Virus record (IMG/VR): IMGVR_UViG_3300025508_003105
Location: 1 to 20,625 of that record
Reading direction: 5' to 3' (one strand)
Origin: a virus
Length of the DNA stretch: 20,625 nucleotides
Below are positions 2,962 through 20,625 of this stretch, in pieces (position 1 is the stretch's first letter; the number at the start of each line of letters is the position of its first letter). A model generated the notes under the pieces. The model was not told where the DNA came from and did no database searches. It saw nothing but the letters and a program-made list of their open reading frames with translations. The position numbers and the translations under genes are program-made.

Positions 2962-3960
2962 ATGAGTAAAAAAGTAGCATTTATAACGGGGATAGCAGGT
3001 CAAGACGGTTCATATCTTACTGAGTATTTATTAGAATTAGGTTATACGGTACATGGTATGGTACGTAGAAATTCAGTGGCTGAGAACCAACAAAGTAGGT
3101 TAGCCGCTGCTAGAAAAAACCCAAATTTTTACGTCCATTATGGCGATTTAACGGACCAAACTTCAATTGAAAGATTATTAACTGAAATTAAGCCTGATGA
3201 AATTTATAATTTAGGTGCGCAATCTCACGTTAGGGTAAGTTTTGATATTCCACAATTTACGGTTCAAACAAACGCAGTTGGTGTGGTTAACATGTTAGAA
3301 GCGTATAGGCGATTATGTCCTAACGCTAAATTCTATCAAGCGTCAAGTTCTGAAATGTTTGGGTTAACAGTAGAAGACGATGGGTTTCAAAGAGAAACTT
3401 CGGTAATGAATCCAGTTTCACCTTATGGGTGTGCTAAAGTCTTCGCTTATAATATGGTTCGTCATTATCGTAGAGCTTACGGATTACATGTAACCAACGG
3501 TATTTTGTTCAATCATGAATCACCACGAAGGGGTAGTAATTTTGTTACTAATAAAGTTGTTAAAACTGCGGTTCAAATCAAACTTGGGTTGGTAGGTAAA
3601 TTAGAACTTGGAAATATGGATTCATATAGAGATTGGGGTCATTCTAAAGATTATGTTAGAGCAATGTATAAAGTAATTAATCATGACGTTGCCGATGATT
3701 TCGCAATTTCAACTATGGAAACTCATTCAGTACGTGAAATGTGTGATGTGGTATTTAAATATTTGGGTATGAATTATGAAGATTATGTAGTTCAGAACTC
3801 AAAATATATGAGACCTGAAGAATTACCATACTTAAAAGGTGATTCAACAAAAGCGAGAACTACGTTAGATTGGAAACCAACATATACCTTTAAGGAAATG
3901 ATGCACGAAATGGTGGACCATTGGATGGATGTATTACAAAATATTGAATCCACTAGATAA
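2962..3960 (+). CDS. gmd: GDP-mannose 4,6-dehydratase
   Basis: A 332-residue extended short-chain dehydrogenase that converts GDP-mannose to GDP-4-keto-6-deoxymannose, the entry step to GDP-fucose, GDP-rhamnose, GDP-perosamine and related sugars. The NAD(P)-binding motif GIAGQDG is at 10-16. VRRNS at 34-38 is the usual second cofactor loop. ASSSEMFG at 127-134 and SPYGCAK with Tyr155/Lys159 make up the catalytic set, and NHESPRRG at 184-191 is the GDP-sugar binding segment. Length and motifs fit a complete, active enzyme. It is separated from the upstream sugar genes by a 73-bp regulatory-looking gap. No fucose synthase (fcl) is nearby, so the next step is unclear; the short DegT-like protein or an enzyme outside the window may take over. 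Confidence 0.95.
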   Translation: MSKKVAFITGIAGQDGSYLTEYLLELGYTVHGMVRRNSVAENQQSRLAAARKNPNFYVHYGDLTDQTSIERLLTEIKPDEIYNLGAQSHVRVSFDIPQFTVQTNAVGVVNMLEAYRRLCPNAKFYQASSSEMFGLTVEDDGFQRETSVMNPVSPYGCAKVFAYNMVRHYRRAYGLHVTNGILFNHESPRRGSNFVTNKVVKTAVQIKLGLVGKLELGNMDSYRDWGHSKDYVRAMYKVINHDVADDFAISTMETHSVREMCDVVFKYLGMNYEDYVVQNSKYMRPEELPYLKGDSTKARTTLDWKPTYTFKEMMHEMVDHWMDVLQNIESTR

Positions 3961-4020: not shown

Positions 4021-4998
4021 ATGTCAATAATAAGATATTTAAAAAGAAAAATAACTTTACTATCACTAGCATTATCTAGGGTTGAGAAGTCTTCACTTAA
4101 TCAACACTCAGACGCTTTAGGGAGCGAAGGTACTGTACATGAAACAATGAATCAAGGTTCAATGGCTGATGCTCTATTAAGGGGTGAAATAACTATGCCA
4201 GTAAAAGAACTTAGGTGGCGTTTATATAAAATTTTGACTGAATCTAAGTCTAAGACGGCTAAGATTACTGGTTATGATTCGGATGGGCTTCCCATAGTTG
4301 AAACATATACCATTGAAAAACATAACTTATCTAAAATTAGTTGTGATGAATTTGATTCGTATGATGTTGAGTTAGTTATTAAAAACGAGGATATTATTAA
4401 GTCTACTGTGGAATCATTCGATAATAAAGATTTAAATGTTTTAGATAAAACTGAAATCGATGATTATGATGAAAATAAAACAAAACACGATTTAATTGGG
4501 GTTGAAAATTGGAGTGGTAGAACTTTAGGTGAAATTTCATTTGACGATATGGTATCTTCAATGAAATCTAAAAAAACTATTTATGTTAGTAGAGAAATAA
4601 GACCTAAATTTGAAATAGAATCTTATACTAAGAAATTGGTAATTAGAAAGATTAATGAAACTGAGAGGTTAATGGAATTTTATTTATCACAATACCCTGA
4701 TGAGTATGATAGAAAAACAAGAATGTTAATTTCAGAAATCAAAAAAGCTAAACAGAACCCTAGGGCTTCTGATTTATTAGATATTAATAAAGTCGGTTTC
4801 ATTAGTGATAAAGCAATTGGTTCAGATGATGGGTTAGAATATGAATATGATATTAAGAAATTTGATAAAATAGTAGAATTCAATGGCCACTACGTTATTA
4901 AATTTATTGCTGACGTTACTATTAATGGTGATAATATCTTTGAAAAGTATAAATTATCTGAATTAGAGTTAAAGTATGAAAATAAAATGGCTAAATAG
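4021..4998 (+). CDS. Conserved phage hypothetical protein
   Basis: A 325-residue soluble, charged protein. I recognise a stretch around residues 45-70 (GSMADALLRGEIT followed by a PVKELRWRLYK helix) that recurs, as far as I recall, in uncharacterised proteins of large marine T4-like phages. The middle is rich in Asp, Glu and Lys, and the C-terminal third alternates strands and helices. No signal peptide, membrane segment or catalytic motif is visible. In-frame stop codons just upstream (TAA at 4009-4011) support the ATG at 4021. The stop codon lies inside a perfect terminator-like hairpin. No function can be assigned from sequence; a virion or assembly role is only a guess from the company it keeps. 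Confidence 0.8.
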   Translation: MSIIRYLKRKITLLSLALSRVEKSSLNQHSDALGSEGTVHETMNQGSMADALLRGEITMPVKELRWRLYKILTESKSKTAKITGYDSDGLPIVETYTIEKHNLSKISCDEFDSYDVELVIKNEDIIKSTVESFDNKDLNVLDKTEIDDYDENKTKHDLIGVENWSGRTLGEISFDDMVSSMKSKKTIYVSREIRPKFEIESYTKKLVIRKINETERLMEFYLSQYPDEYDRKTRMLISEIKKAKQNPRASDLLDINKVGFISDKAIGSDDGLEYEYDIKKFDKIVEFNGHYVIKFIADVTINGDNIFEKYKLSELELKYENKMAK

Positions 4999-5027
4999 CC
5001 ATTTTATGTTTAGTTTTGTTTTTTTGT
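4982..5027 (+). terminator. Rho-independent-type terminator at the end of the 4021-4998 gene
   Basis: ATAAAATGGC (4982-4991) pairs perfectly with GCCATTTTAT (4998-5007) around a 6-nt loop that contains most of the stop codon. A T-rich stretch follows (5009-5027, with a run of seven T). The shape fits an intrinsic terminator. Confidence 0.7.
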
Positions 5028-5036
5028 AATTATATT

Positions 5037-5070
5037 AAATGTGAGTTTAAGAAAAGACTCACATTTTTTT
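5037..5070 (+). promoter_or_regulatory. phoH: Perfect hairpin plus T-run touching the phoH start codon
   Basis: AAATGTGAGT (5037-5046) pairs perfectly with ACTCACATTT (5057-5066) across a 10-nt loop, and T continues to 5070, directly before the ATG at 5071. By shape this is a second terminator. No promoter can fit between it and phoH, so phoH transcripts should carry the hairpin in their leader. It may therefore be an attenuator, an RNA-binding-protein operator or a processing site. Confidence 0.65.
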
Positions 5071-5796
5071 ATGGCAAAAAAACAAAATACTACAACAGTT
5101 AGGAAGACTGCAAAAGTAAGTTCGGTAAATGAAATTTTACCTAAGAAAGTACAATTAAAATGTAAAAATGTTAAGCAAAAAGAATATGCTACATTAATAA
5201 GGGAAAAAGAGATTGTATTCTGCTCTGGCCCAGCTGGAGTTGGTAAATCGTATGTTGCTATGGCAGTCGCATTACAACTCATCCAAAACACTTCAAACTC
5301 ATTTAATAGAATATTAATTGTGAAACCAGCTGTAGAAGCTGAAGAAAGTCTAGGTTTCTTACCAGGGGACTTAAAAGAAAAAATGGCACCATACATGGCA
5401 TCATCAATTGATATTGTTGACAAAATAATTGGTAAAGATAATAGATTTAAACTTGAGGAATGTGAAGACTTAATGGTGGAGCCATTAGGTTTTATACGAG
5501 GTAAATCTATTGACAACGCTGTATTACTTATGGAGGAAGCGCAAAACATGTCACCATCTCAAATGAAAACCTTATTAACAAGAATTGGTTACAATTCAAA
5601 ATATATAATATCGGGTGATATGGACCAATCTGATAAATATAGACGAATTGAACAAACTGGATTATATGATGCAATTCATAGACATAAAAATATTAAAGAA
5701 ATTGGTTTCTTTGAATTTGACGAAGGTGATATCGTAAGAAACCCTTTAATAACTAAAATAATCAATAACTATAAAATAATTGATGAAGATGTATAA
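5071..5796 (+). CDS. phoH: PhoH-family ATPase
   Basis: A 241-residue P-loop ATPase of the PhoH family, common in large phages, especially marine ones. Walker A is GPAGVGKS at 53-60, followed by the family segment ending in VKPAVEAEESLGFLPGD (84-100). Walker B is LLMEEAQNMS at 152-161, with Glu where many relatives have Asp. SGDMDQSD at 181-188 is the third motif, and a glutamate-rich C-terminal strand follows. I chose the ATG at 5071 (MAKKQ...) over a GTG at 5041, because the extra codons are simply the hairpin sequence. The cellular role of phage PhoH is not settled; links to phosphate stress and RNA metabolism have been proposed. Confidence 0.92.
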   Translation: MAKKQNTTTVRKTAKVSSVNEILPKKVQLKCKNVKQKEYATLIREKEIVFCSGPAGVGKSYVAMAVALQLIQNTSNSFNRILIVKPAVEAEESLGFLPGDLKEKMAPYMASSIDIVDKIIGKDNRFKLEECEDLMVEPLGFIRGKSIDNAVLLMEEAQNMSPSQMKTLLTRIGYNSKYIISGDMDQSDKYRRIEQTGLYDAIHRHKNIKEIGFFEFDEGDIVRNPLITKIINNYKIIDEDV

Positions 5797-5847
5797 AAAA
5801 AGTAACAAAGTTATTTACTTTATGGAATTTTTAATTAAAATTATATA

Positions 5848-6423
5848 ATGAAAATAGGGATAACTTTAAATGAGGTGATAAGAGACTTCATAGGGCAATT
5901 TAAATATGTTTATGGTAAATACTATAAGGAAGATTTAGAAGACGTTGTTATTGATGAATGGGATTTATTAAAATATTTTAAATTCCCATCAGAAAAAAAA
6001 CTTAATGAATTTTTATATAGTGATGCGCCAATGGAGGTATTTGCTCACGCAGACCAATCATACGCAAATATCGGTGCTATTTTAAATAGATTTATCGCTG
6101 ATATAAACGATGAAGAGGAACATGAGATTATAATAATTAGTAGGGATGCGCACAAGGCAATTCCTTCAACATTATTTTTCTTATCTAAGTTAGGTTTTAC
6201 TGGAAATAACATAAGATTTGTTAATGATACAGCTAAAAAATGGGACGATATTGATTTATTAGTTACTGCAAACCCAAAAGCTTTAGAAGCTAAGCCTGAA
6301 GGTAAAATTTCAGTTAAAATTAATGCTTCATATAATAAAAATACTGACGCTGATTATGAATTAGATAGTATTTTAGACTTCGTTGATAACGAAGAAAAAT
6401 TTAATGAGATTATAAATGATTGA
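5848..6423 (+). CDS. HAD-like (5'-nucleotidase-like) protein lacking catalytic residues
   Basis: A 191-residue protein that opens with MKIGITLNEVIRDF. This aligns with the start of small HAD-superfamily nucleotidases (MKIGxDxDGxIRDF), except that the two catalytic aspartates are Thr6 and Asn8. Later elements also follow the HAD order: a hydrophobic strand ending in Ser (IIIISRD, 94-100; motif II-like) and KKWDDIDLLVTANP (130-143), where active relatives have a Lys and then a DD-type motif IV. Here the acidic pair is replaced by Val-Thr-Ala. All three key positions are therefore altered, so a binding or structural role is more likely than phosphatase activity. The C-terminus overlaps the next gene by 8 bp, suggesting the two proteins work together. 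The fold assignment is mine by pattern and should be treated as probable. Confidence 0.6.
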   Translation: MKIGITLNEVIRDFIGQFKYVYGKYYKEDLEDVVIDEWDLLKYFKFPSEKKLNEFLYSDAPMEVFAHADQSYANIGAILNRFIADINDEEEHEIIIISRDAHKAIPSTLFFLSKLGFTGNNIRFVNDTAKKWDDIDLLVTANPKALEAKPEGKISVKINASYNKNTDADYELDSILDFVDNEEKFNEIIND

Positions 6424-15314: not shown

Positions 15315-15329
15315 GTGTATTATTGTATC

Positions 15330-16406
15330 ATGAATAAAACGATATTAATTACTGGTGGAGCTGGATTTATAGGTTCACACGTTGTGAATTACTTCACAGA
15401 TAAATACCCTGAAACCCATTTTATTGTAATTGACTCTTTAACATACGCATCTAATTTAAAAAATATTATGCAAGTAGAAGGTAGTTCCGTAGGGTGGAAA
15501 CCAAACATGACTTTCTGGAACACTGATATTAGAAACGTTGATTCTCTTCAAACATTATTCAAAAGTCATAACATTGATGGAATTATTCACTTAGCAGCTG
15601 AATCTCATGTTGATAATTCTATTAAAGACCCAAATATTTTTGTGGAAACAAATGTTATTGGTACTCTTAACCTATTAAATGTTGCTAAAGAATTCTGGGG
15701 TGAAGGTTCTGAAAATAGGTTCCATCACGTATCAACAGATGAAGTTTATGGTGATTTAACGCTTGACGAACAACCTTTCGTGGAAACGACACCTTATGAC
15801 CCAAGTTCACCTTATTCAGCCTCTAAAGCAGCCTCAGACCATTTTGTAAGGGCATATGGTAGAACTTATGGGATGAATATTACAATTTCTAATTGTTCTA
15901 ACAATTATGGGCCTCACCAACACGCTGAAAAGTTAATCCCAGTTGTTATTAAAAAATTAATGCATGGTGAGAAGATACCAGTTTATGGTAAGGGTGAGAA
16001 TGTAAGGGATTGGTTATGGGTTGGCGACCATGTAACGGCAATTGATGAAATATTCCATAATGGTAAAAAAGGTCACACTTATAATGTAGGTGGTGATAAT
16101 GAATTAACCAATATAGAATTAATATATAAAATATGTGAATTATTCAATAATTTATATAAAAATGTTGAATCACCGATAGTAAATTTACCTGATTTTCCAA
16201 TAAAGTTTGTTACAGATAGAAAAGGTCATGATTTGAGATATGCAGTTAATTCAAATAAATTACAAACAAATCTTAATTGGAAACCTGAAAAGAAAATTTA
16301 CGATGGTTTATTAGAAACAATTGAATATTATGTTAGAACTAAAATAGTTAACGGTAAATTAGAATATGAAAATAGAACAATTAACACTGGCCGAAGTAAC
16401 CCTTGA
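15330..16406 (+). CDS. rfbB: dTDP-glucose 4,6-dehydratase
   Basis: A 358-residue extended short-chain dehydrogenase (RmlB/RfbB) that turns dTDP-glucose into dTDP-4-keto-6-deoxyglucose, the precursor of dTDP-rhamnose and many deoxy and amino sugars. Diagnostic features are ITGGAGFIGSHV at 6-17 (NAD site), HVSTDEVYGDL in the middle, SPYSASKAASDHF with the Tyr-x3-Lys pair, NCSNNYGPHQHAEKLIP, and GENVRDWLWVGDH. Length fits the family. The ATG at 15330 gives the usual short N-terminus; a GTG 15 bp earlier lies in the T-run of the terminator. RmlA, RmlC and RmlD are not in the window, so the phage may divert a host pathway or encode them elsewhere. A possible host-type promoter overlaps the terminator (TTTG 15294-15297, 20 bp, TATTATTG 15318-15325). 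Confidence 0.94.
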   Translation: MNKTILITGGAGFIGSHVVNYFTDKYPETHFIVIDSLTYASNLKNIMQVEGSSVGWKPNMTFWNTDIRNVDSLQTLFKSHNIDGIIHLAAESHVDNSIKDPNIFVETNVIGTLNLLNVAKEFWGEGSENRFHHVSTDEVYGDLTLDEQPFVETTPYDPSSPYSASKAASDHFVRAYGRTYGMNITISNCSNNYGPHQHAEKLIPVVIKKLMHGEKIPVYGKGENVRDWLWVGDHVTAIDEIFHNGKKGHTYNVGGDNELTNIELIYKICELFNNLYKNVESPIVNLPDFPIKFVTDRKGHDLRYAVNSNKLQTNLNWKPEKKIYDGLLETIEYYVRTKIVNGKLEYENRTINTGRSNP

Positions 16407-16521: not shown

Positions 16522-16540
16522 AATGTTATTTTTATATTTG
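16509..16540 (+). promoter_or_regulatory. Bacteroidota-type promoter before the helicase gene
   Basis: TTTG (16509-16512), 20 bp, then TATATTTG (16533-16540) match the -33 TTTG and -7 TAnnTTTG consensus of Bacteroidota housekeeping promoters. Transcription would begin near 16545, giving a leader of about 25 nt before the ATG at 16571. Confidence 0.5.
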
Positions 16541-16570
16541 TATCATTTTAAAACAACAAAATATAATAAT

Positions 16571-18019
16571 ATGAAAAGAAATTTAGTGCTTAGAGGGTAT
16601 CAAGAAGGCGCAGTAGACCACATTATGAAAACACCAGTATGTGTTTTAGCAATAGCACCCAATGGTGGTAAAACAGAAATATCTATTAAAGTTATTGATA
16701 GATATCTACAAAAAAACCCAAACGCCAAAATCTTAGTGTTACCTCACTCAACTAATGTGTTGAAAGATAATTATTATGATAGATTAGAAGAAACTAAAGT
16801 CAATTTCACATATTCAAAAGAATTTGACCCTAATAGTAGTGTCCACATATCACTACCAAATAGTGAGAAAAAAATCACAGGTAAATATGATTTTGTAATA
16901 GTTGATGAAGCTCATGAAAATTATTTTGCAACAAGAGAACAAAGACTTATCAAGAATATAAACCCAAGTAAACAACTATTGTTAACTGGAACACCCTCTA
17001 TTTTTATTAGGAAGGGTGGGTTTGATATATTTTTTATTGCAGCAAATCAAATTCCAGAAATATACTCAGCTAAATTAAATCTTGAATTGGTGGCATCCAA
17101 CTATAAATGGTTAGGTAATTACACCAATGACCACGAAGTTAAAAAAAGTTTCATGTTTAATGTTGATGATACACGAAAAACACTTGAAGCGGTAATGGAC
17201 AAATTATTACAAAGACTTCAAACTAAATTTACACCAGTACAATTTAATCACCCATCATGGGTAACTAAATTTAAAAATTGGGCGTTTACTTATGACCAAA
17301 TTGGTAAAACAATGATTGCATGTAAAACTATTTCACAAGCTAACACAGTTTATGATATTTTAAAAAATGAACATAATATGAATGTAGGGTTATCTCATTC
17401 ATTAAATGATACTGAAAGTAGTATAATTAATGATTTTAAAGCTGGTGAGTATAATGTGTTGGTTGTTGTTAATAGAGGTCGATTAGGGTTTAGTGATGTG
17501 AATTTAATGAACCTTATTGATATGACAGGTACACATAATCCAGATATTATATTTCAAATGTTCTGTCGAGTTCTTAGAGGTACACCAGACATGACAAAAT
17601 ACTATATGAAGGTTACACCTAAAGAATTACATAACATGTCATTAACACACCTCTCAGTATGCGCTGGGTTGATGTTAACAGATATTAAATTCTTAAAAAT
17701 ATACAACGGTAGAAATTTTAATGATATCCAAATCCCAATAATTAGAGGTAATAGACCATCACCAACTGTTGGGTCAACAAGTGGAAGTGGTGGTACAAGA
17801 CCTAACCCAGTTACTAGAAATATTTTACCAGAATTTACTTACAATGTTGTAGATACAATGAAAAGTGTGCTTCATGATGCTGAAAACATTGCCAGTATTT
17901 ATAAAATGACCACTATTGGTCACGTTAAATACACATTAGGTCATTCTAAACAAAGACCCAAATTAACATTTGAAGATATAGTAGAAAGTTGTCGAGGTAA
18001 TTTATCGTTAGTGGAGTAA
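16571..18019 (+). CDS. uvsW: UvsW-like superfamily 2 DNA helicase
   Basis: A 482-residue SF2 helicase resembling T4 UvsW, which unwinds branched DNA and R-loops during recombination-dependent replication. Seen motifs are a Q-motif-like RGYQEGAVDHI near the N-terminus, Walker A APNGGKTE at 29-36, a VDEAHE DEAH box at 111-116, LTGTPS (motif III) at 138-143, a motif V-like NRGRLGFSDVN at 301-311 and motif VI QMFCRVLRG at 329-337. The Walker A loop reads GGKT, one residue shorter than the usual GxGKT. A Gly/Ser/Pro linker (about 401-418) precedes a short C-terminal domain. The start at 16571 fits the family; an upstream in-frame ATG at 16523 would add 16 unrelated residues inside the promoter. 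Confidence 0.83.
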   Translation: MKRNLVLRGYQEGAVDHIMKTPVCVLAIAPNGGKTEISIKVIDRYLQKNPNAKILVLPHSTNVLKDNYYDRLEETKVNFTYSKEFDPNSSVHISLPNSEKKITGKYDFVIVDEAHENYFATREQRLIKNINPSKQLLLTGTPSIFIRKGGFDIFFIAANQIPEIYSAKLNLELVASNYKWLGNYTNDHEVKKSFMFNVDDTRKTLEAVMDKLLQRLQTKFTPVQFNHPSWVTKFKNWAFTYDQIGKTMIACKTISQANTVYDILKNEHNMNVGLSHSLNDTESSIINDFKAGEYNVLVVVNRGRLGFSDVNLMNLIDMTGTHNPDIIFQMFCRVLRGTPDMTKYYMKVTPKELHNMSLTHLSVCAGLMLTDIKFLKIYNGRNFNDIQIPIIRGNRPSPTVGSTSGSGGTRPNPVTRNILPEFTYNVVDTMKSVLHDAENIASIYKMTTIGHVKYTLGHSKQRPKLTFEDIVESCRGNLSLVE

Positions 18020-18023
18020 TAAT

Positions 18024-18785
18024 ATGCCTGAAAAAACTCCATATAATTCAATTAAAGAATGGCGAGTTAGTAATAAAAAAGCCTATAAAGATGCTGAATC
18101 ACAAGGTTATATTAATAGATTATGTGAAATATTTGGGTGGTCTGAATATGTGAAAGAAAGGGGTAATGGGCATTGGAATCTAAATCGATGTGTTGAATCT
18201 GCAAAAGGTTTAACTAAAAAAAAATGGAGAGAAAAATTTAATTCAGCATATCAAGCAGCACATAGAAAAGGTTGGATGGGTGAATGTAATAAAGTTTTAA
18301 TACATAATACTAATCCAACTGGGTTAGTTAGAAGTGAAAAAGAAAGTCATTTAATAGCATTAAAATATAGTACACTTAGAGATTTTAGAGAAAATGAACC
18401 AATTACTTATAGTCACGCATCTTATCATGGTTGGTTACCCAAAATAACATCACACTTAATTAGGGAAACAAATAAAACTAAAACTTACACTAAAGAAGAA
18501 TGTATAAATTCAGCTAAAAAATTTAAATATAGAAGTCAATGGGCTAAAAATGAAGTGACGTATTATAATTATGCAAGAAATAATGGTTGGTTAGATGAAT
18601 GTTGTCAACATATGAATAGAAAATCTAAATGGGAAGATTCAAATATTTGGATTGAAAAAATAACTTTCATAGATTCTAAAAAATATAAAACCGAAGAAGA
18701 ATGGAAAAAAAAATCCATAGGTTCTTATATGACAGCTCAAAAATTAGGGATTATGGATGAATGTACTAAACATATGAAATTATGA
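18024..18785 (+). CDS. Modular repeat protein 1 (header plus four ~50-residue repeats)
   Basis: A 253-residue basic protein built almost wholly of one module. A header of about 45 residues (EKTPYNSIKEWRVSNKKAY, ending in LCEIFGW) is followed by four diverged copies, each with a Trp near the start, an A-K-K-(Y/F) helix, a (E/Q)W or (D/F) pair, an SY/YY...A pair and a closing G-W-(L/M)-x-E-C-x2-(H) motif (for example NGWLDECCQHM). As I recall, similar modules occur in marine phage proteins, some carrying GIY-YIG endonuclease domains; here no nuclease motif is present. The high Lys/Arg content suits nucleic-acid binding. The stop overlaps the next start by ATGA. The repeats are more diverged than in the second gene. 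Function is inference. Confidence 0.8.
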   Translation: MPEKTPYNSIKEWRVSNKKAYKDAESQGYINRLCEIFGWSEYVKERGNGHWNLNRCVESAKGLTKKKWREKFNSAYQAAHRKGWMGECNKVLIHNTNPTGLVRSEKESHLIALKYSTLRDFRENEPITYSHASYHGWLPKITSHLIRETNKTKTYTKEECINSAKKFKYRSQWAKNEVTYYNYARNNGWLDECCQHMNRKSKWEDSNIWIEKITFIDSKKYKTEEEWKKKSIGSYMTAQKLGIMDECTKHMKL

Positions 18786-19561
18786 AAGAAAAATCACCAT
18801 ATAAATCACTAGGTGAGTGGCGAAAAGCTAACCCAAAAGAATATAAAAAAGCTTATTCTAAAGGTTGGTTAGATGAAATATGTGGTAAGTTTAGTTGGAT
18901 TAAAATTTCAAAAAAAATTAACGCTAATGGTTATTGGAATATTAAAGAGAGGGTCTTAAATGAATCTAAAAAATATAAAACTAGAAGTGAATGGCAAAAA
19001 AATTCTTCTGGTTCATATAATTCAGCTAGAAAAAATGGTTGGTTAGACGAATGTACTGAACATATGAAAAGATTTAATAAACCAAATAAATATTGGGTTA
19101 AAAAAAAATGTATCACCGAAGCTAAAAAATACAAAACTAGAAGTGAATGGGCTAAAAATTCTTCTGGCTCATATAATTCAGCTAAAATAAATGGTTGGTT
19201 AGATGAATGTACTAAACATATGATTGAGGTATTAAAACCGAAAGGTTATTGGACTAAAGAATTATGTTTGGTTGAAGCTAAAAAATATAAAACTAGAAAT
19301 GAATGGCAAAAAAATAGCCAAACTTCATATAATAAATCAAGAATGAATGGTTGGTATGATGAATGTATACTTCATATGGAAATTAAAAAAATACCATCTA
19401 CTTATTGGACTAAAGAATTATGTTTGGTTGAAGCTAAAAAATATAATAGTAAATCTAAATGGAAAAAAAATAATTCATCTTCTTATAACTCAGCTAGAAT
19501 TAACGGTTGGTTTAATGAATGTACTAAACATATGAAACGTGGTAGAAAAATCTCAATATAA
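18782..19561 (+). CDS. Modular repeat protein 2 (header plus four near-identical repeats)
   Basis: A 259-residue, strongly basic paralogue of its upstream neighbour. The header (EKSPYKSLGEWRKANPKEY ... GWLDEICGKFSW) is followed by four repeats whose YW pairs lie at residues 51, 104, 156 and 208, giving a period of 52-53 residues. A typical module contains EAKKYKTRSEW, a KNSSGSYNSA helix and NGWLDECTKHM. The Cys before the EAKKY helix and the C-x2-H at the end recur and might bind metal, though some copies lose them. No catalytic residues or nuclease motif are visible. Start is coupled to the upstream stop, and a paralogue starts within its last 23 bp. Confidence 0.82.
   Translation: MKEKSPYKSLGEWRKANPKEYKKAYSKGWLDEICGKFSWIKISKKINANGYWNIKERVLNESKKYKTRSEWQKNSSGSYNSARKNGWLDECTEHMKRFNKPNKYWVKKKCITEAKKYKTRSEWAKNSSGSYNSAKINGWLDECTKHMIEVLKPKGYWTKELCLVEAKKYKTRNEWQKNSQTSYNKSRMNGWYDECILHMEIKKIPSTYWTKELCLVEAKKYNSKSKWKKNNSSSYNSARINGWFNECTKHMKRGRKISI
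18932..19534 (+). repeat. Tandem ~156-bp coding repeats inside the second repeat gene
   Basis: Four in-frame copies, spaced 159, 156 and 156 bp. Parts are still identical at DNA level: the 45 bases at 19246-19290 recur exactly at 19402-19446. This points to recent unequal duplication or gene conversion between modules. Confidence 0.9.
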
Positions 19562-20625
19562 ATCCCTAGCCGAATGGAGAAAATCAGATTTATCATCATA
19601 TAATGCTGCTAGGAAACAAGGGTTTCTAAAAGAAATATGTGATTTATTTGGTTGGAAATTAATACCAAAAAAAATCTTCTGGACCAAAGAAAAGTGTGTA
19701 GTTGAAGCTAAAAAAAATGAAACTAGGCTTGAATGGAGAAAAAATAGTTATGGTTCATATGATTCTGCTAAAAGAAAAGGTTGGTTACCTGAAATATGTG
19801 ATTTATGTAATTGGGAAGAACCAAAAAAAATATATTGTAGAAAACCTAATGGTTATTGGGGTGTATTAGAGAATTGTATGATAGAAGCGAAGAAACACAA
19901 CACTCTAACTAAATGGCGTAAAGCTAATCTCCCTTCCTATGAGGGGGCAAAAAACAATGGACACCTTAATGAATGTACTAAACATATGACAATACCTAAA
20001 ATAGGTGTTAAATATTGGACATTAGAGCGTTGTAAAGAGGATGCGTTAAAACATAGTGGTAGGTGGGAATGGCAAAAATCTAAAGGTGGTTACAATGTAG
20101 CGAAAACTAAAGGTTGGTTAGATATTTGTTGTGAGCATATGCCACAAAGAAAAAAATGGACATATGAAGAGGTTAAAAAAATAGCATTAAAATATGAATA
20201 CGCTTCTGATTGGGAACATGCTGACCCCTTATCATACTCAATAGCATCAACTAATGGTTGGTATGAAGACTTAACCGCACATATGGGTAGGAAAATAAAA
20301 AAATTAGGTTACTGGAATAATAAGGAACTTTGTAAAAAAATTATCGCAACATGCAATAGTAAGGAAGAAGTTAAGAAACATCACGGTGTATTTAACTCAA
20401 TTAGAAGAAATGGGTGGTATAAGGAGTTAACAGCGCATTTTAAACCAGCTACTGGTTTTTGGAATAAAGAAACATTATTAGAAGAGGCCAATAAGTATGA
20501 AACAATTAAGGATTTTAAGGATAATTCAAATGGTGCATACCAAACAGCTATTAAACTTGATTGTAAGGATTACGTGACACAAAATTTAATCAGTAATTTA
20601 TGCAAACCTAAAGGTTATTGGACAA
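19539..20625 (+). CDS. Modular repeat protein 3, 3' truncated, GTG start
   Basis: An open frame of at least 362 codons with no stop up to the window edge. The start is a GTG at 19539, overlapping the second repeat gene by 23 bp. The choice is supported by alignment with the start of gene 2: GTG/ATG, then x-E-K-S-x-Y-K-S-L-x-E-W-R-K in both, codon by codon. A TGA at 19533-19535 closes the frame upstream. After the header (ending KEICDLFGW) come six modules and the first residues of a seventh (GYWT at the edge). Later modules are diverged (NGWYEDLTAHM, NGWYKELTAHF), and the second module contains HLNECTKHM. It is the longest of the three and its C-terminus, where a nuclease domain would be expected in known relatives, is outside the window. 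Confidence 0.75.
   Translation, partial: MVEKSQYKSLAEWRKSDLSSYNAARKQGFLKEICDLFGWKLIPKKIFWTKEKCVVEAKKNETRLEWRKNSYGSYDSAKRKGWLPEICDLCNWEEPKKIYCRKPNGYWGVLENCMIEAKKHNTLTKWRKANLPSYEGAKNNGHLNECTKHMTIPKIGVKYWTLERCKEDALKHSGRWEWQKSKGGYNVAKTKGWLDICCEHMPQRKKWTYEEVKKIALKYEYASDWEHADPLSYSIASTNGWYEDLTAHMGRKIKKLGYWNNKELCKKIIATCNSKEEVKKHHGVFNSIRRNGWYKELTAHFKPATGFWNKETLLEEANKYETIKDFKDNSNGAYQTAIKLDCKDYVTQNLISNLCKPKGYWT

Follow-up and report, generated by a model that had tools for sequence, protein, structure and literature searches.

The window, a stretch of 20,625 nt of viral DNA, ends in an array of genes built from tandem copies of one ~44-aa module, and the array stands immediately behind the gene of an SF2 helicase. 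In other phages, homologues of this helicase carry homologous modules in the same polypeptide. We put at about even probability the reading that the array is a split-off, exchangeable DNA-binding arm of the upstream helicase. The module itself links several types of DNA-acting enzymes in phages and bacteria, and in the window it stands alone in multiplied, recombining genes.

The array and its module

The array consists of four overlapping genes on the same strand, whose coordinates are collected in Table 1. Three of the ORFs lie in the window, with overlaps of 4 nt between genes 1 and 2 and 23 nt between genes 2 and 3 (ORF list). An IMG/VR contig of 41.9 kb (IMGVR_UViG_3300006029_000017, here L001) shares 9844 bp with the window at 100% identity; it carries the array past position 20625, where it completes gene 3 and adds gene 4. 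Thus, of the three consecutive, coupled genes of the preliminary description, the overlapping same-strand arrangement is real, but the number of genes is four. Modules were delimited with an HMM seeded from gene 2, and the best single-module E-values in genes 1, 2 and 3 were 5e-21, 1e-35 and 1e-19, which is far past chance. A half-module opens each array gene at the N-terminus. This is in good agreement with the shared header and the 4, 4 and at least 6 modules seen earlier, the third gene having 7. Gene 2 had been called nearly uniform and genes 1 and 3 diverged. It is indeed the most uniform, but its mean module-module identity is only 0.54, against 0.24, 0.30 and 0.38 in genes 1, 3 and 4.

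Table 1. Coordinates of the helicase gene, the array genes and their parts (window numbering unless stated otherwise).
Feature	Position	Strand	Description
SF2 helicase	16523..18019	+	called as 498 aa; 482 aa when started at ATG 16571, which lines up with relatives
Gene 1	18024..18785	+	253 aa, half-module header and 4 diverged modules (ORF list, module HMM)
Gene 1 header	18024..18140	+	half-module xEKxxYxSxxEWRxxNxxxY...FGW without the first helix
Block of gene 1 modules 1-3, probably exchanged	~18171..18637	+	97% identical to L037, surroundings ~80%
Gene 2	18782..19561	+	259 aa, header and 4 similar modules, 156-nt period at the DNA level (ORF list, module HMM)
Gene 3	19539..20625	+	GTG start, 417 aa, header and 7 modules; open at the window end
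Gene 3, complete	L001 8758-10011		ends at window-equivalent 20792
Gene 4	window-equivalent 20770-21369		199 aa, 3 modules (L001)
Headers of genes 2, 3 and 4	start at 18782, 19539 and window-equivalent 20770		HMM partial matches, header alignment

With pI values of 9.5-9.9 the array proteins are all basic, as had been noted. A profile search for the GIY-YIG domain (PF01541) gave no match in genes 1-4, in accordance with the earlier view that the array genes lack a nuclease domain, nor did it give one anywhere in the 41.9-kb contig, which extends beyond position 20625, where a nuclease domain was to be looked for; the profile does match in relatives that carry this module. Array ORFs are known from two phages, the second being represented by the contig L037, and all seven genes are intact and coupled and have conserved headers, the last L037 gene leaving its contig. 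This speaks against decay. A single long gene broken by frameshifts was rejected, as every gene starts with a header of its own and L037 shows an identical junction of helicase and array. The earlier idea of an anti-host system found no support; membership of a defence system was rejected, PADLOC giving weak matches to the helicase core only. On the 3' side of gene 4 there are convergent head genes, including those for the major head protein and the head protease (L001). The window phage is T4-like, and two sugar-nucleotide genes, one GDP-mannose 4,6-dehydratase-like and the other a second NAD-dependent dehydratase/epimerase, are found among its structural genes at 2962-3960 and 15315-16406.

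The consensus of 490 distinct modules is YWTKEKCKEEALKYKTRSEFRKNSSGAYNAARKNGWLDEICSHM, in which W2, H43 and M44 are nearly invariant (93-96%) and A11, Y14 and Y28 are conserved at 80-87%. The variable positions include 18, 21, 25, 29, 30, 32 and 33. C7, C41 and H43 are common and a CxxC motif is absent. With 65 aligned module pairs from IMG/VR and GTDB as input, AlphaFold predicted the module as four short helices (4-11, 17-23, 25-33 and 37-40; pLDDT 91, pTM 0.55), and AF2 of the whole of gene 2 gave a pLDDT of 90.7 and a pTM of 0.46, the linkers being less certain. The predicted header helices (10-16, 18-26 and 30-37) correspond to module helices 2-4, helix 1 missing. The combination of confident modules and low pTM (0.46-0.55) is read as beads on a string, that is, as modules that would fold independently.

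The module had no PDB match with E <1 among solved folds (best VIA Z 2.7), and a structure search of BFVD returned the family itself and one "Endonuclease-like" protein. As a family it is named in PHROGs only, where phrog_20046 (PHROGs v4) has neither function nor architecture assigned; this profile matches genes 1-3 with E-values of 1.3e-45, 3.7e-62 and 1.5e-52. A search of the available literature gave no paper describing the module or the helicase-module fusions. For 32 pairs of modules from one and the same ORF, each pair with a nucleotide identity of 80% or more, omega was 1.08 at eight variable positions, picked from those same alignments, and 0.16 in the core, a contrast that is no more than suggestive. 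We infer that the module binds nucleic acid.

Enzymes joined to the module and the upstream helicase

Scanning with a four-row consensus alignment identified 78 module loci in IMG/VR and 15 in GTDB genomes; 20 diverse module pairs were too poorly conserved to serve as query. Architectures were tallied for 89 non-redundant module ORFs from a biased sample, namely the best 80 of 181 IMG/VR matches to two motif patterns, the 15 GTDB loci and isolated phages. In this sample a GIY-YIG-like domain is present in 65/89 ORFs, an SF2 helicase in 6/89, modules only in 9/89 and other arrangements in 9/89, which bears out the earlier statement that such modules accompany GIY-YIG nucleases in phages. Modules flank the GIY-YIG domain on both sides in the relatives, and the Pfam GIY-YIG matches of several module ORFs are near or above the cut-off. 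The module also has partners beyond GIY-YIG. The module protein of BcepSauron has MUG113 (Pfam), and four loci (L019, L085, L097 and L103) combine modules with nuclease domains that appear Vsr-like by inspection and by sub-threshold Pfam matches, in L019 and L085 to MTES_1575. One ORF (L052 5821-9216) has the unusual combination of five modules, an SNF2-type ATPase and a methyltransferase (Methyltransf_8, E 2e-41). Such a range of partners, from GIY-YIG, MUG113-type and Vsr-like nucleases to an SF2 helicase and an SNF2-methyltransferase, is what one would expect if the module is a general DNA binder.

The window helicase stops 4 nt ahead of the array, gene 1 being in another frame, and matches ResIII (1.5e-13) and Helicase_C (7e-8) in Pfam. 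In the six helicase ORFs of the tally (L030, L032, L041, L042, L059 and L079) a ~480-aa SF2 helicase with a ResIII/DEAD core and 4-7 modules form one polypeptide. The window helicase can be aligned along its whole length with their helicase parts (~470 aa, 28-36% identical, E 1e-37 to 1e-73; best alignment 35%, E~1e-73), and the alignment ends close to where the modules of the fusions start. The separation of helicase from modules is the same in L037. A helicase tree groups the split forms with a support of 100, but places this group only weakly with respect to the fused forms.

A search by helicase alignment, run independently of the modules, found one further helicase with two modules in its tail (L117). 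Another member of the group (L116 4968-7070) ends in a different tandem repeat of ~57 aa, FYSDKQGYFDLIRVENITS...KYKELSERDGVKYHS...FNQSVKEFFDECYP, which has no Pfam match above the cut-off, and a third (L119 3-1619) carries INT_rpt-like repeats, named from integrases (PF14882, 26.2 bits with a cut-off of 26.5). L120 is a member of the group without a repeat tail. Helicases of this group thus usually end in a repeated C-terminal tail, and the array of the window resembles a tail of this kind placed in separate genes. At E 1e-15, none of 50,697 records of isolated phages matched the window helicase, so that all members of the group known here come from metagenomic contigs.

Most module proteins, among the 89 ORFs from the best 80 of 181 IMG/VR matches and the other sources, are nuclease proteins without an adjoining helicase. 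Apart from the two helicase-array phages, a helicase adjoins in two unrelated phages only: in Rhizobium phage RHph_TM3_3_9 (L012) and in Vibrio pYD38-B (L013) a module-nuclease gene lies beside a different SF2 helicase, with a gap of 4 bp and an overlap of 7 nt, respectively. Adjacency in so few ORFs is not general. RHph_TM3_3_9 has three module-GIY-YIG genes (W04 63232-66874), two of them ~1-4 kb past the helicase, across the record start.

Exchange of modules and interpretation of the array

L037 represents the only other close relative that was found. Its helicase is 80% identical to that of the window and is followed by three module-only genes, and the order dehydratase, helicase, module genes is common to both phages. 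An extra module gene of 200 aa lies in L037 between the helicase and the gene 1 orthologue. Between the two phages dS is 0.77-1.2 in well-aligned neighbouring genes and 0.77 in the helicase, against 0.163 (bootstrap 0.113-0.224) in gene 1. Within gene 1, dS is 0.036 and dN 0.028 in the block of modules 1-3 (~450 bp), whereas the header has a dS of 0.65 and the last module one of 0.26. The simplest reading is that the block was recently exchanged, with edges at module boundaries. RNA structure was rejected as a cause of its conservation (z -0.44). The array keeps its location in the two closest relatives, but gene number and modules vary; the combination that would have spoken against the preliminary description, a fixed location together with a fixed copy number and a structural role, did not occur.

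The module genes of Vibrio phages vary as well. In schizotequatroviruses a GIY-YIG module gene occupies one location with 3 to 6 modules, in line with the expandable repeats proposed earlier. The gene is duplicated in R11Z, and it is found in VH7D and missing in ValKK3 between flanks that are 98-99% identical. In VH7D a terminator-like hairpin, AAAGGGTTGCGCTATGCAGCCCTTTTTT, stands on either side of it (L148 3927-3957 and 4908-4936), and ValKK3 has a single copy of this hairpin without the module gene (L152 ~1540-1570). This suggests gain or loss of the gene via recombination between terminators. Either homing or plain recombination could account for this presence/absence pattern and for the exchange of the gene 1 block. 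A third contig (L151) has header-bearing module genes at another place, adjoined by a gene that by eye resembles LAGLIDADG endonucleases (4796-5928). The latter is located beside a duplicated 3' fragment of a neighbouring 516-aa gene, as if inserted.

Alternatively, the array could derive from GIY-YIG mobile endonucleases, as a relic or satellite that lacks the nuclease: modules copied from homing-type proteins would have gathered beside the helicase, kept by recombination and with no helicase-linked function. The GIY-YIG-like domain in 65 of the 89 ORFs (best 80 of 181 IMG/VR matches), the cassette-like difference between VH7D and ValKK3 with its duplicated terminator-like repeats, the block exchange in gene 1 and the L151 locus, which lies elsewhere with a LAGLIDADG-like endonuclease as its neighbour, all fit with such an origin. 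We nevertheless find it unlikely, as the seven array genes of the two phages are intact and coupled with conserved headers (dN 0.14, dS 0.65 between window and L037), the 41.9-kb contig has no GIY-YIG match, and the helicase-module fusions represent a use of the module outside nucleases. The preliminary description had likewise offered the DNA-binding half of a mobile endonuclease family; the GIY-YIG company of the module agrees with this, but a DNA-binding arm of the helicase reads better, since the helicase upstream has homologues fused to modules.

That the proteins are stand-alone DNA-binding regulators, similar to CapR or to I-TevI acting as a repressor and directed for example at the convergent late/head genes, appears quite improbable to us: CapR is a precedent (PMC10448857) and the array end adjoins the operon of the major head protein, but four parallel genes exceed the need of one repressor and the association with the upstream helicase is left unexplained. 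Least probable is that the modules have proteins or RNA as their ligands instead of DNA, the array being a scaffold (e.g., of helicase-nuclease complexes) or a binder of the host nucleoid, for although neither a solved structure nor a curated family links the fold to DNA and basic proteins can bind RNA too, the partner enzymes mostly have DNA-cutting or DNA-remodelling domains.

According to the helicase-arm reading, the four genes would encode strings of basic, independently folding helical modules that bind nucleic acid and supply, in trans, a DNA-gripping or DNA-targeting arm to the SF2 helicase of the same operon. The arm, which in other phages is the C-terminal tail of the helicase, would in the window phage have become detached and been copied into several genes in a row. 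The fusions in the relatives suggest such an interaction in trans. Recombination between repeats and between phages would change the number of genes, the number of modules and blocks of modules, so that the helicase would be paired with changing arms, presumably to the benefit of a changing specificity. A more specific version, which we hold only tentatively and think possible rather than probable, is that one SF2 motor is served by a growing, recombining library of interchangeable targeting arms, in which block swaps change the DNA preference. If so, this would be a recognition system in which certain module positions vary while the core is kept. Should the module bind DNA with a tunable preference, it would constitute a new modular recognition unit with a logic like that of strings of zinc fingers or TALE repeats, and many proteins at present annotated as hypothetical would gain a testable function. 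The helicase fusions give the repeat protein a specific candidate partner.

Comparison with known systems

The closest arrangement by homology is that of the six helicase-module fusions, whose helicase and modules are both homologous to those of the window; they are one polypeptide, whereas the window phage has a helicase and four separate module genes. phrog_20046 is the same module family as the window genes. Helicases with Helicase_assoc domains (PF03457) consist of an SF2 motor with repeated C-terminal accessory domains. They are similar in having tandem small helical repeats after the motor and differ from the window, where the repeats are separate genes; PF03457 had no Pfam match in the fused helicase-module proteins or the array genes.

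GIY-YIG nucleases with NUMOD domains, such as I-TevI and Seg/SegD (PMC1564403, PMC5107563), join a catalytic domain to repeated small DNA-binding modules, as do the module-GIY-YIG relatives. The window array, however, is without a nuclease, and in its relatives modules occur on both sides of the GIY-YIG domain. NUMOD1-4 gave no Pfam match in any module protein scanned, while a control (L036 9343-10152) did give NUMOD1.

Of the systems described, the T5orf172 endonucleases come nearest in logic, with DNA-binding domains that are repeated and recombine. These homing-type endonucleases have repeated CapR/DUF723/DUF4379 zinc-finger domains, and CapR, a stand-alone repressor of capsid genes, shares its DNA-binding domain with them (PMC10448857). 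DNA-binding repeats like beads on a string, a variable copy number, recombination between repeats and an occasional stand-alone protein are points of likeness (PMC10448857). The array module differs in lacking a CxxC...CxC finger and in forming a multigene array behind a helicase, and DUF723 and DUF4379 gave no Pfam match in the module proteins. Taken together, we rate modular DNA-binding strings on phage enzymes as known, and the module, its partner and the multigene layout as new.
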